Source: Leucobacter aridicollis
GTDB taxonomy: Bacteria; Actinomycetota; Actinomycetes; Actinomycetales; Microbacteriaceae
Assembly (NCBI RefSeq): GCF_013409595.1
Contig: NZ_JACCBD010000001.1
Span: forward strand, 2,604,001 to 2,668,000
DNA length: 64,000 nt
Reading direction: 5' to 3'
Shown: piece after piece, positions 4,793 through 57,580 of the stretch
How positions within the stretch are numbered: the stretch's first letter is position 1
Layout: every line of letters starts with the position of its first letter
The notes under the pieces: generated by a model
Databases searched by the model: none
What the model was told of the DNA's origin: nothing
What the model saw: the letters and a program-made list of their open reading frames with translations, nothing else
Translations under genes and position numbers: made by a program

Positions 4793-4878
4793 CGCACGCA
4801 ATGGGATCTGCAGAAGATCTGCCCTCCCCCGGCTGTCAGGCCATACCAACTGACGATCCCAGATGTACCGCCCACTGC
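4793..4878 (+). repeat. Dispersed repeat, copy A (86 bp)
   Basis: Starts CGCACGCAATGGGATCTGCA and aligns without gaps to 4971-5056 (offset 178). The shared core CAATGGGATCTGC lies at 4799-4811. The next bases, AGAAGATCTGCCC, place two ATCTGC units about a turn apart. The same 13-bp core recurs twice, inverted, near 57.3-57.4 kb. Confidence 0.85.
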
Positions 4879-4970: not shown

Positions 4971-5056
4971 CGCACCCAATGGGATCTGCAGAAGATCTGC
5001 CCACCTCCAGCTGCCAGGGCATACCAACTGCCGATCCCATAGCTACGGCTCATTGC
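4971..5056 (+). repeat. Dispersed repeat, copy B (86 bp)
   Basis: Second copy of the 4793-4878 block. The core CAATGGGATCTGC is at 4977-4989, and CATACCAACTG is also conserved further in. The two copies are in the same orientation and diverge mostly in their last 20 bases. Confidence 0.85.
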
Positions 5057-53592: not shown

Positions 53593-54332
53593 TGCTCGGT
53601 CCCCCTGTCGAGGACGTCGAGCCCGAACGCGAGCGCGAGGTTCTCTGGTCGCAGTACGGCGTCGGGGGGACCGTGCATGAGCACACGACGCATGAGCAGG
53701 ATCGCCTCGTCCGCGAGGCTCGGCAGGGCATGCAGATCGTGCGTCGAGACGAGGATCGTTGCCCCCTCGCCGGCGAGCTCGCGCAGCAGTCGGGTGATTG
53801 TCGCCTCCGAGCGTTTGTCGACGCCGGCGAATGGCTCGTCGAGCAGCAGGGTTGTCGCCCCCTGCGCGATCCCGCGCGCGACGAACGTCCGCTTCTTCTG
53901 CCCGCCCGATAGCTGGCCGATCTGCCGATCGGCAAAGTCCGTGAGCTCGACGCGTTCGAGCGCGTGATCGACGGCGCGCTGGTCCGCGGCCTTCGGCCGG
54001 CGCGTCGGCCCCATCTTGCCGTAGCGGCCGGTCATGACGACGTCACGCACCGACAGCGGGAAGCCCCAATCCACGTCCTCGCTCTGCGGCACGTAACCGA
54101 CCGCGCCCGTCTTGCGCATCCGAGCCGGGCTCTGCCCGTCGATCCGCACCGAGCCGCGATCGGGTCGGACCATGCCCATGATTGTCTTGAACAGGGTCGA
54201 CTTGCCAGAGCCGTTCATGCCGACGAGCCCGCAGACGCGGCCGCGTTCGAGCGTCAGCGATGCCCCGTCGAGCGCGAGCACCTCGCCGTAGTGCACCGTC
54301 ACGTCGTCGACGACGATCGCCGGGGCGCTCAC
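53589..54332 (-). CDS. mntB: Manganese-type ABC transporter ATP-binding protein
   Basis: A 247-residue ABC ATPase. Walker A GMNGSGKSTLFK (about residues 38-49), signature LSGGQKKRTFVARGIAQGA (about residues 142-160), Walker B LLLDEPFAGVD, and switch His in VSTHDLHAL. Powers metal uptake together with the adjacent permease and binding protein. Confidence 0.94.
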   Translation of the reverse strand: MSAPAIVVDDVTVHYGEVLALDGASLTLERGRVCGLVGMNGSGKSTLFKTIMGMVRPDRGSVRIDGQSPARMRKTGAVGYVPQSEDVDWGFPLSVRDVVMTGRYGKMGPTRRPKAADQRAVDHALERVELTDFADRQIGQLSGGQKKRTFVARGIAQGATTLLLDEPFAGVDKRSEATITRLLRELAGEGATILVSTHDLHALPSLADEAILLMRRVLMHGPPDAVLRPENLALAFGLDVLDRGTEQ

Positions 54333-55306
54333 TGCTGCCCGCCCGAGAGCGCAGCGACGATCGCGTCGGCGTCGTGCCGGATGAGATCCAGATAGGTCGG
54401 CACGGGCCCATCCGCCTCCGAGAGCGAATCGACGTAGAGCACGTCGCCAAGCGTGGCGTCGGTCGCCTCCACGACCTGCCGCATCGGAGCGTCCGACACC
54501 GTCGACTCGCAGAACACGGCCGGGACATCGTTCTCGCGCACGAATTCGATCGCCGAGGCGATCTGCCGTGGCGTCGCCTGCTGCTCAGCGTTCACCGCCC
54601 AGATGTACTTCTCGGTGAGCCGGGCGTCGCGGGCCAGATACGAGAACGCTCCCTCGCAGGTGACGAGTGCCCGTTGCTGTCTCGGCAGGGCTTCGAGGGA
54701 CTGCACGAGCTCATCCTGCACATCCTGCAGTTCGGTCTTGTACGCCTGCGCGTTTGCCGCGTATGCCTCGGCGTGTGCCGGGTCGATGCGCGTGAATGCC
54801 TCGGCCATGTTGTCGACGTAGACCTGCACGTTGAGCGGGCTCATCCACGCGTGGGGATTCGGCATGCCGCTGTAGGCGTCCTCGCGGATGTCGATCGGTT
54901 CGATCCCGTCGCTCACGACCGCGTGCGGCACGTCGAGGCCGCTCACGAACTGTTCGAACCAGGCTTCCAGCCCCATCCCGTTGTCGAGGATGAGGTCGGC
55001 CTCGCTCGCCCGGCGAATGTCGCCGGGCGTCGGCTCGTAGCCGTGAATCTCGGCGCCCACCTTGGTGATGGATTCGACGCGCAGGTGGCCGCCGGCGACG
55101 TTCTCGGCGATATCCGCGAGCACGGTGAACGTCGTGAGCACGACGGGCCGGGCGTCGGCGTCGCTGCCGCGAGCCTCGCCGCCACTGGCGCCGGACTGGC
55201 TGCCGGTGCTCGGGCCCGCGCAGCCGGCGAGGAGGAGCGTCGCGGCCGCGACTGCGGCTGCGAAGAACGTGTGCTTCAGGCTCCAAGGGGAGGGAATGGG
55301 TGGCAA
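54329..55306 (-). CDS. mntA: Manganese-type ABC transporter substrate-binding lipoprotein
   Basis: A 325-residue cluster A-I binding protein with a lipoprotein signal (LLLAGCAG, Cys at residue 28). Four metal ligands can be placed: His in AEIHGYEPTP, His in NPHAWMS, Glu in VTCEGAFSY, Asp in VLYVDSLS. Glu at the third place, rather than the His seen in zinc-specific ZnuA, points to Mn(II) or Fe(II). It is first in the operon, downstream of the promoter/operator at 55365-55394. Confidence 0.92.
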   Translation of the reverse strand: MPPIPSPWSLKHTFFAAAVAAATLLLAGCAGPSTGSQSGASGGEARGSDADARPVVLTTFTVLADIAENVAGGHLRVESITKVGAEIHGYEPTPGDIRRASEADLILDNGMGLEAWFEQFVSGLDVPHAVVSDGIEPIDIREDAYSGMPNPHAWMSPLNVQVYVDNMAEAFTRIDPAHAEAYAANAQAYKTELQDVQDELVQSLEALPRQQRALVTCEGAFSYLARDARLTEKYIWAVNAEQQATPRQIASAIEFVRENDVPAVFCESTVSDAPMRQVVEATDATLGDVLYVDSLSEADGPVPTYLDLIRHDADAIVAALSGGQQ

Positions 55307-55364
55307 GTTGACCTCCGTGGGTAGTGAGATATTGACCTATCGACGTGGAAATTCGACAAAGGCA

Positions 55365-55394
55365 ACTATAGAGTTCGGACTGTCGAACTTGCAA
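55365..55394 (-). promoter_or_regulatory. Promoter with palindromic operator of the mnt operon
   Basis: On the minus strand TTGCAA (55394-55389) and TATAGT (55370-55365) are separated by 18 bp. Between them AGTTCG (55372-55377) and CGAACT (55384-55389) form a perfect 6-bp palindrome around GACTGT. This placement suits a metal-dependent repressor such as MntR/DtxR. Confidence 0.55.
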
Positions 55395-55595
55395 GCCCAT
55401 AGAAGCGAACTCCGGAGTTGCCCGCTCCCGCCATGAAGGAACGGGGCCGAGTTCCACCTCTCACGCATTCCGAATGCAACCCTGTCGCGATAGCGTGAGT
55501 GAAAGTGGCAGCTTGGGACACGCCGCGTCACGCAGCCAGCAAGCGCCAGTGATGCCATAGCCAACGGGTGGCGCTCAAGACTCAGGAGATACGAC

Positions 55596-55847
55596 ATGAA
55601 GAACCGACCATCTGAAATAGCGCAAGGCGCCGGCGGTCAGCCAGGCTTCGGCCTCACGCCACGTCAGGAGATCATCGAAATCGATGTTCCGCCTCACGGC
55701 ACTCCGGCGCTTCAGGCGAGTCTCACATCAGCCCTTGCCGGGCGGCCGCTACACAGAATTGTGGCACTGACGATGGCGACTTACGGCGAGTTTCCGCTGC
55801 ACTACCGCCTATTGGTCGTTATCGAGTATCTCCAGGGGCAGCAATGA
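55596..55847 (+). CDS. 83-residue protein of unknown function, coupled to the GIY-YIG gene
   Basis: A small soluble protein, with a GGQPGFGLTPRQ N-terminal stretch, a beta-like IIEIDVPPHGTPALQASL and a helical C-terminal half (LHRIVALTMATYGEF, YRLLVVIEYL). AGGAG stands before the ATG. The last codons overlap the start of the nuclease gene (ATGA). It has no recognised domain; it may be a partner or regulator of the nuclease. Codon use is less GC-biased than its neighbours. Confidence 0.7.
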   Translation: MKNRPSEIAQGAGGQPGFGLTPRQEIIEIDVPPHGTPALQASLTSALAGRPLHRIVALTMATYGEFPLHYRLLVVIEYLQGQQ

Positions 55848-56701
55848 CGTTGCACGAAGCGATGCGTCAGGCCCTGCGGGCTGCGGGTCGCGGTATGACC
55901 GCAGCAGAAATCGCATTGGCCGTCAACGCAGGCGAGAGCTACCGAAATCGCGACGGCTCTCCAGTGGCTGCCTCGCAGGTCGCACTTCGGGCGAGTAACT
56001 ACTCGCACCTGTTCGATCGGGAGGGCGCGCAAATCTTCTTGGCTAGTGACGCATGGGGCGACACTGCCCCGGCGCTTCAGACGGGAACTGCGGAAGCTCA
56101 AGCGCACCGGGTGGCCCGAGCAGAACTCACTCGCGTTCAGCCAACGCCGTCTGACGACCTCCGCCGACTCGTCTATGCCGGCTCATTCATCTCCGCCGCG
56201 GACGCAGACGTCCACGTCCCGCCTTCACCAGGACTCTACGCAATTCGACTCGCAGACGACGCCGCGTTGCCGCGAGAATTCGCTGAACTTGCACTGACCC
56301 GGGGCCATCGGATTGCATATGTGGGCAAGGCCACCACGAGCCTCCGGACCCGATTAGTCAGCCAGGAGCTTCGCGCCAGGGGTCACGGAACGTTCTTCCG
56401 AAGCATTGGAGCAGTGCTCGGGTTCAGGCCAGCACCGGGGAGCATGGCCGGAAGGAAGAACGGGCGCAATTACGGTTTCGTGCCAGCTGACGAGGCAGCG
56501 ATCATTCGCTGGATCAACAACAACATGCTCGTCAATTGGGTTGAGGTTGACCCCGAGCTTCAGCGCAGTAGTGAGGCGCGCCTGATCCGGCAGCATTGTC
56601 CGGTATTCAATCTCGCCGGGAACCCGGAGGCTTCCACGCGACTATTGGCGCTGCGCGCAGAGTGCGTCCGCATCGCTAGTGCCGCGGCCTCGGGTCCTTA
56701 A
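55844..56701 (+). CDS. Winged-helix (HARE-HTH-like) plus GIY-YIG nuclease fusion
   Basis: A 285-residue protein. Residues 1 to about 65 resemble a HARE-HTH winged helix (LHEAMRQALRAAGRGMTAAEI; SNYSHLFDREGAQIFL), a DNA-binding module found in chromatin and restriction proteins. Residues about 120-270 form a GIY-YIG nuclease: GLYAIRLADD (GIY strand), IAYVGKATTSLRTRL (YIG strand and conserved Arg) and SEARLIRQHCPVFNLAGN, with the catalytic Glu. A middle part, FRSIGAVLGFRP and RWINNNMLVNWVEVD, fits GIY-YIG folds of the UvrC/Eco29kI kind. Such combinations are candidates for defence or restriction. The surrounding DNA is less GC-rich than the rest, which suggests acquisition. The function is an inference. 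Confidence 0.78.
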   Translation: MTLHEAMRQALRAAGRGMTAAEIALAVNAGESYRNRDGSPVAASQVALRASNYSHLFDREGAQIFLASDAWGDTAPALQTGTAEAQAHRVARAELTRVQPTPSDDLRRLVYAGSFISAADADVHVPPSPGLYAIRLADDAALPREFAELALTRGHRIAYVGKATTSLRTRLVSQELRARGHGTFFRSIGAVLGFRPAPGSMAGRKNGRNYGFVPADEAAIIRWINNNMLVNWVEVDPELQRSSEARLIRQHCPVFNLAGNPEASTRLLALRAECVRIASAAASGP

Positions 56702-56717
56702 GTTCACGGAAAGGGCG

Positions 56718-57185
56718 CTAGGCCGCGCCGACGAATCCCTGCTGCCTCCACGCCTCGTAGCTGGCAATCGCGGCGCAGTTTGCGAGGTTCATGGAGCGCG
56801 GTCCGGGAAGCATCGGGATGCGCAGACTGTCCGTAATCGCTTCGTGGTCGAGGATCTCCTGGGGCAGCCCGGTCGGCTCAGGCCCGAAGAGGAGCACGTC
56901 AGTCGGCTCATATGCCACATCCGTGTAGTGCCGAGTGGTGTGAGCGGTGAACGCAAACACCCGTGCTGGCGCGAGCGCAGCGATCGCCGCGTCGAAGGAG
57001 TCGTGAAGGTGCACGACTGCAAGGTCGTGATAGTCGAGGCCCGCACGCTTGAGCTTTGAGTCTTCGAAGTCAAACAGCGGGTTGACGATGTGGAGCTCGG
57101 CGCCGGTGCCGGCGGCCAATCGAATCGTGTTACCGGTGTTTCCGGCGATGCGGGGCTCGAAGAAAAGGATGCGGGTCACCCACAC
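56718..57185 (-). CDS. trmL: tRNA (cytidine/uridine-2'-O-)-methyltransferase TrmL
   Basis: A 155-residue SPOUT methyltransferase that methylates the 2'-O of nucleotide 34 in tRNA-Leu. The family blocks are FFEPRIAGNTGNTIRLAAGTG (cut by the N-terminal strand), VLLFGPEPTGLPQEIL and IPMLPGPRSMNLANCAAIASYE, where the trefoil knot holds SAM. GTG at 57185 is placed 8 nt after GAGGAG; GTG at 57179 is an alternative. It is convergent with the GIY-YIG gene. Confidence 0.93.
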   Translation of the reverse strand: MWVTRILFFEPRIAGNTGNTIRLAAGTGAELHIVNPLFDFEDSKLKRAGLDYHDLAVVHLHDSFDAAIAALAPARVFAFTAHTTRHYTDVAYEPTDVLLFGPEPTGLPQEILDHEAITDSLRIPMLPGPRSMNLANCAAIASYEAWRQQGFVGAA

Positions 57186-57321
57186 AGGATACTCCTCGCG
57201 GTCGTGCACACAGGTTCAGACCGGCGTCCCGCCCGGGCAACCGGGGCCTCATCTCCAGCAGCGCCTTCACCTGGGATCCGCAGTTCGAATCCCGCACCTC
57301 ACCCAAATCGACAGGTGAATT

Positions 57322-57334
57322 GCAGATCCCATTG
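57322..57334 (-). repeat. Dispersed repeat core, inverted copy
   Basis: GCAGATCCCATTG is the reverse complement of the 13-bp core at 4799-4811 and 4977-4989. The flanking sequence is only partly similar. Confidence 0.7.
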
Positions 57335-57436
57335 GCTGCAGCTGCCCCGGCTGTTGCTGCAGGCGCACTCGCCCAGCCCATGCATCTGAGATCTGCACAC
57401 CTAATACCTCAGAGCCAGCGGATTGGCATCGCAATC

Positions 57437-57449
57437 GCAGATCCCATTG
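57437..57449 (-). repeat. Dispersed repeat core, inverted copy
   Basis: GCAGATCCCATTG again, 115 bp further on. A nearby GAGATCTGCACACCTAATACC (57388-57408) partly resembles the AGATCTGCCC...CATACC section of the copies near 5 kb. Confidence 0.7.
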
Positions 57450-57580
57450 GTACGACCGGAAGCGTGCGGGTACGGCCGGAAGGATGCAACCTACGGCAGA
57501 AATCTAGCGGGCCACCGGCTGAAGCGCGCGGGCCACGGGCTGAGGCGCGCTCGCCGAGAGCCAACACCCCCACCCCTCCC

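Follow-up and report, generated by a model that had tools for sequence, protein, structure and literature searches.

Two enzymes that combine a winged helix (wH) with a GIY-YIG nuclease domain, Ahi29725I and Apa233I, cut DNA with 6mA in GATC and were purified and active as single proteins, according to PMC11037411. The same text considers HARE-HTH domains, which have an extra helix, likelier to sense cytosine modification, and PMC10853773 proposes modified-DNA discrimination for HARE-HTH nucleases and describes Dnd-linked neighbourhoods. We analysed 64,000 nucleotides of the chromosome of Leucobacter aridicollis (the whole stretch is called the window here), in which an earlier note, made from the sequence alone, had pointed out a small gene, here called S, overlapping a nuclease gene. 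Like the two enzymes as that source presents them, the window nuclease has a winged helix followed by a GIY-YIG domain in one chain, has no adjacent methylase gene and keeps the catalytic-type residues; it differs in its HARE-HTH-like winged helix and in the coupled S gene, the likeness being one of architecture and not of direct sequence comparison. Compared with the type II GIY-YIG enzyme R.Eco29kI (PDB 3mx4, 3nic and 3mx1), it has an additional winged helix and is without a cognate methylase beside it. With the Dnd-linked HARE-HTH fusions of PMC10853773 it shares the joining of a HARE-HTH(-like) domain to a nuclease, whereas the nuclease part there is an REase domain instead of GIY-YIG and the window flanks are not Dnd genes. 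The nuclease is a fresh member of an established kind, the wH-GIY-YIG restriction-type enzymes. The earlier note had called the unit plausibly uncharacterised, which does not hold for this type of nuclease, since 6mA-dependent restriction has already been demonstrated for wH-GIY-YIG enzymes (PMC11037411). By analogy it would be a further wH-GIY-YIG reader of a DNA mark. A literature search by the domain name GIY_YIG_2 turned up nothing.

The two open reading frames and their overlap were found at the positions given earlier. The S gene (55596..55847, plus strand) encodes an 83-residue protein of a small, apparently undescribed family with a predicted beta-alpha-beta-beta core (residues ~19-83), and its stop codon overlaps the start codon of the nuclease gene in an ATGA (55844..55847, plus strand). 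By inspection of the sequence, an AGGAG lies a few bases 5' of the S ATG. The nuclease gene (55844..56701, plus strand) encodes 285 amino acids, with an N-terminal, HARE-HTH-like winged helix (residues ~1-77; 55844..56074, plus strand) and a GIY-YIG domain (residues 130-272, PF20815; 56231..56659, plus strand); this order, winged helix before GIY-YIG, is the architecture of the type IV wH-GIY-YIG restriction enzymes. In a Pfam profile search the protein matched PF20815 (GIY_YIG_2) well above the curated cut-off (E 8.9e-28; 97.6 bits, cut-off 22.4), and G130, Y132, Y159, G161, R170, E244 and N256 were invariant in an alignment of 36 sequences, so that the proposal of a GIY-YIG core with catalytic-type residues is borne out. 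We take Y132, Y159, R170, E244 and N256 to be the GIY/YIG tyrosines, the Arg, the Glu and the Asn of the GIY-YIG active site. The proposal of a HARE-HTH-like N-terminus stood in part: a winged helix spanning roughly residues 1-77 is seen in the AF2 model, and PF05066 (HARE-HTH) is a precomputed domain on many listed homologues, but the window protein alone scored below the cut-off of 25.9 bits (E 0.02, 15.7 bits), and the homologue in G007 scored 24.7 bits. Because its own score is below the cut-off while many homologues carry the domain, we call the nuclease HARE-HTH-like and not a HARE-HTH member. Note that the database gene call (P0001) begins at residue 18 and misses the conserved N-terminus and the overlap (window 55844-55895). 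Nearly all aligned homologues reach an MTLHEA-type N-terminus (P0049 begins later), supporting the ATG at 55844. Neither S nor the nuclease matched a PADLOC-DB model at E <= 0.001; the best PADLOC match of the nuclease was PDC-S14, which was weak (E 0.027).

The pair lies between two ordinary genes, as had been claimed: on the left a ZnuA-type metal-binding lipoprotein gene (54329..55306, minus strand) and on the right a SpoU-type RNA methylase gene (56718..57209, minus strand), both assigned by Pfam. In three relatives of the same genus, the same flanking genes in the same orientation are ~8.7 kb apart (G003), ~8.6 kb (G019) and ~5.7 kb (G033), as against 1.4 kb in the window. Against G003 the match of the window DNA stops at 55267 and resumes at 56718; against G019 it stops at 55263 and resumes at 56717. 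Both flanks match, and the segment between them (55268..56716, no strand) had no DNA match in G003 and G019 and a single 31-bp match (55364-55394) in G033. Between the flanks, G003 and G019 have a common set of long genes, G033 has other genes and the window has a third content. The variable position suggested by the earlier note is therefore supported, the pair being missing between the same flanks in three relatives that hold other genes there, and it appears from the sequence comparison to be acquired or patchily retained. G013 and G716, whose flanking genes are on one contig, ~7 kb apart and in another arrangement, were left out of this test; in G035 and G026 the flanks are on different contigs. 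Among the 54 genomes of the genus, the ZnuA-type gene had a match at E <= 1e-20 in 44, paralogues included, and the SpoU-type gene was found in 18. As a separate observation, the znuA-spoU interval is a possible exchange site in the genus, since the three relatives (L106, L107 and L108) carry two different sets of genes there and the window carries yet another. No convincing direct or inverted repeat bracketing the pair was found as transposon ends.

The segment 55268-56716 has a GC content of 0.612, compared with 0.683 over the whole window, and none of ~1250 stretches of the same length (1449 bp, 50-bp step, overlapping ones included) was as low. The GC difference noticed before is thus real, but the low-GC stretch is not limited to the pair, continuing through the spoU gene (GC 0.634) to ~57.7 kb; GC3 sets the pair apart more clearly (0.63 and 0.66, versus 0.79-0.92 in five other genes). 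With ZnuA-type and SpoU-type genes as its neighbours and no cognate DNA methylase gene beside it, the nuclease does not have the setting of a type II restriction-modification system. In its own genome no Dam-type methylase (PF02086) was detected, the same search being positive in 4 of 14 known genomes as a control, and one C5 methylase gene (PF00145) lies ~2 Mb from the nuclease by chromosome coordinate. Either mark would agree with the methylase content of the genome, as searched with these two profiles, which does not discriminate between them.

The nuclease was present in 2 of the 60 relatives searched, its own genome included; the second is G007, in which the match covers residues 1-66 only (the winged helix, 56% identical). 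Homologues were collected from 60 loci in named genomes, mostly of Bacteroidota and Actinobacteria. A type I restriction-modification subunit (HsdM, HsdS or HsdR-like) occurs in the flanks of 22 of these loci (flanks up to ~8 kb, BLAST E <= 1e-6, representatives confirmed by Pfam), AbiEii-like genes occur at nine and WYL regulators at eight, supporting a restriction or defence role. A small protein of ~170 amino acids was also seen near the nuclease at six loci (L025, L034, L035, L037, L040 and L046), all among the 22 with type I subunits; it has no Pfam match, and a YVGYA motif was seen in L034. The defence unit proposed in the earlier note is supported in part by the defence association of the relatives of both proteins, although the site in the window, judged from the two flanking genes examined, is not a visible defence island.

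The S gene is, on codon evidence, a real coding family with relatives, as expected of the coupled small partner that had been claimed. The ten loci described below gave 45 pairs, of which 13 were saturated; dN stayed below dS in every one of the 32 pairs whose dS was finite, and the differences at codon positions 1, 2 and 3 numbered 1224, 904 and 1676. Q24, H53, E65 and E77 of S are invariant. A protein search with the single sequence reached only its own cluster, and a profile was therefore required, with which 72 related proteins were found. S was detected in 7 of the 54 genus genomes (own included), and, in the same family, in G332 (two copies) and G787, giving ten loci altogether. The family search at E <= 0.001 recovered S in 5 of 398 genomes, own included; a weak match in G324 (E 2.6e-4, 28 positions) was left out of the ten loci, and the weak matches that made up most of 40 matching genomes among 299 in an earlier scan were dropped. 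In the class (394 genomes) S was found in its own genome only, and in the order (396 genomes, six-row profile) in its own genome and in three weak matches (E 7e-4 to 7e-3); in both scans no more than 13-14 first-look candidates per genome were scored, so that misses are possible. No plasmid record was matched by tblastn (window S and P0152 as queries) and no phage record (P0152 as query), and 98 stretches of viral contigs fitted the pattern, of which none was confirmed. Searches of Pfam, NCBIfam, PHROGs, PADLOC and PDB gave nothing better than E 0.0047, which was the best PDB sequence match (7uek). S thus seems to be undescribed in these libraries and in the literature searched by domain words, which are blind to unnamed families and are not proof of absence in print. 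Weak matches to phrog_5736 (E 0.024, 4 of 30 members), DUF7049 (E 0.022, 2 of 30) and the best NCBIfam entry (E 0.018) were set aside. A dodecin function was rejected as unsupported; when 30 members were run against Pfam, no hit at E <= 0.1 belonged to a dodecin family. The predicted fold is tied between dodecin, ribosomal protein S6, ACT-like and other small beta-alpha-beta-beta proteins, and no shared function is implied.

The neighbours of S differ among the ten loci. Besides the window, where S overlaps the wH-GIY-YIG nuclease gene by the ATGA, the same overlap is found in G007 with an intact gene for a 273-aa winged-helix GIY-YIG-motif protein (a PDC-S37 protein being encoded upstream), and in G031 with a gene for a 167-aa GIY-YIG-motif protein of a second type without a winged helix, where a divergent Mrr-type gene lies upstream. 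G029 has an arrangement like that of G031, with the second gene cut off and an Mrr-type nuclease gene. In G717 S lies behind a DUF2510 domain, and a convergent GIY-YIG-motif gene follows ~48 bp on. On contig 9 of G332 an AAA_13 ATPase gene (PDC-S06), which stands behind genes for PDC-M36A and type III restriction proteins, shares an ATGA at its end with S. In G787 S lies behind HmaC and a 301-aa gene (14 nt gap to the latter), with a TrwC relaxase gene downstream, and in G715 relaxase C-terminal sequence is upstream. In the remaining two, G036 has an integrase-core transposase upstream of S and no nuclease in the fetched DNA, and contig 46 of G332 has a gene that we take to be of ABC-F type and no nuclease in its remaining 320 bases.

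A GIY-YIG neighbour is therefore present at five of the ten S loci, one by Pfam and four by motif; those in G007, G031, G029 and G717 have no GIY-YIG Pfam match, and their identity rests on motifs. By hhalign against the window nuclease family, the G031 protein had a probability of 5.9 and the G717 protein of 24, and the 99.7 of the G007 protein was dominated by the winged helix. The winged helix of the G007 protein is like that of the window nuclease, and its C-terminal part is a different GIY-YIG-motif domain. The comparison of L086 4751-5572 with window 55844-56701, in which the winged helix is the same, the C-terminal GIY-YIG-type part differs and both genes lie behind S, has the look of a domain swap. 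The second, G031-type protein was found in 3 of the 54 genus genomes, each time next to S. In G029 the GIY-YIG-type gene behind S is cut off (L099 from ~6776), and transposase-like ORFs are near. At S loci near relaxase genes (L084 5454-5680, L105 3780-4009 and L097 205-417), the DNA remains similar for ~40 bases beyond the stop codon of S.

When the 60 nuclease loci of named genomes, some of them actinobacterial, were searched with an S profile (built from 66 of the 72 proteins and four loci), S was found at none (best score 9.8 bits, E 0.74). The co-occurrence that the earlier note proposed to check thus failed as an obligate one: S would be a modular accessory, and the nuclease works without it elsewhere. 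Among metagenomic proteins, P0017/P0130 and P0018/P0123, each on contigs of equal size and source, suggest further pairs of S and wH-GIY-YIG nuclease. P0025/P0171 was rejected as an adjacent pair, the equal contig size pointing to one chromosome and not to adjacency, and P0074/P0162, both on 1092-base contigs, was dropped for its different sources.

To summarize the computed features, the two genes overlap and make up a segment that varies between relatives while its place in the chromosome is fixed, the nuclease combines a winged helix with a GIY-YIG domain keeping catalytic-type residues, and members of the S family adjoin nuclease or defence genes, with a 4-base overlap at several loci. We consider the chances about even that the pair is a small mobile restriction-type unit, in which the winged helix reads DNA, the GIY-YIG domain cuts and S restrains or positions the nuclease. 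By analogy with known wH-GIY-YIG enzymes, the winged helix would recognize DNA, its target plausibly being a modified base in DNA that enters the cell; the GIY-YIG domain would cut close by. S, whose translation from the shared message would directly precede that of the nuclease, may bind the nuclease or its complex and may restrain it or hold it in the proper assembly. Since S swaps between partners, a general control or docking part is likelier than a dedicated immunity protein.

Several observations run counter to a restriction unit: S near relaxases (in G787, in G715 and, in G332, ~5 kb from homologous relaxase DNA) fits a mobilization role as well, and two of the ten S loci (G036 and one of G332) are without a nuclease partner in the DNA fetched. 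Further counterpoints are the lack of S at the 60 nuclease loci, the motif-based identity of four GIY-YIG neighbours, the site in the window not being a visible defence island, the C5 methylase gene elsewhere in the genome and the weak PADLOC match of the nuclease. S could accordingly serve the upkeep of a mobile element, for example as a relaxosome or oriT-side accessory, the nuclease genes being cargo inserted beside it. The TrwC relaxase downstream of S in G787, the relaxase C-terminal sequence upstream of it in G715 and the similar DNA beyond the S stop in G332, G787 and G715 argue for this, but the G787 relaxase had no match in the DNA around S in the window (6 kb), G007, G031, G029, G717 and G036, the 4-base overlaps suggest that S and the GIY-YIG-type genes are translated together, and the S queries tried brought up neither a plasmid nor a phage record, nor a confirmed viral contig; we regard this explanation as unlikely. 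It is improbable, too, that the two genes are a toxin-antitoxin-like pair, in which S would give immunity to a nuclease that harms its own host, and would elsewhere have been lost or have persisted as an orphan. The small gene is indeed upstream of the nuclease gene and overlaps it, and the G031-type protein is linked to S in three of three genomes; however, the nuclease homologues are without S at all 60 loci in named genomes, and S is also coupled to an AAA_13 ATPase, whereas a dedicated antitoxin is expected to follow one partner. We give little credence to a plain restriction or type IV-like nuclease with S as a bystander gene of unrelated function, which would agree with nucleases lacking S in other taxa and with the activity of Ahi29725I and Apa233I as single purified proteins (PMC11037411), but not with the three intact loci at which S and a GIY-YIG-type gene overlap by an ATGA, or with the linkage to the G031-type protein in three of three genomes.

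Beyond the restriction-type unit, S may found a family, new to science, of portable parts for control or docking that are swapped among different nuclease-based defence operons of Leucobacter and related actinobacteria. This reading, prompted by the 4-base overlap of S with unrelated effectors (GIY-YIG-type and AAA_13) and its position behind an HmaC operon and beside relaxases, is speculative, and we hold it with low confidence. If it is true, one small fold serves several immune systems and the elements carrying them, and a shared small part may control several defence enzymes. Small ORFs in many defence operons are skipped by annotation; S is an example that has coding evidence in its favour, belongs to a family, has a predicted fold and is repeatedly coupled to nuclease-type genes.

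The dispersed repeat that had been mentioned near the pair was recovered in the window as a 14-mer with four copies (counted at <=1 mismatch; none expected in 100 shuffles), located at 57322-57335, 57437-57450, 4976-4989 and 4798-4811, that is, at two places 52 kb apart.
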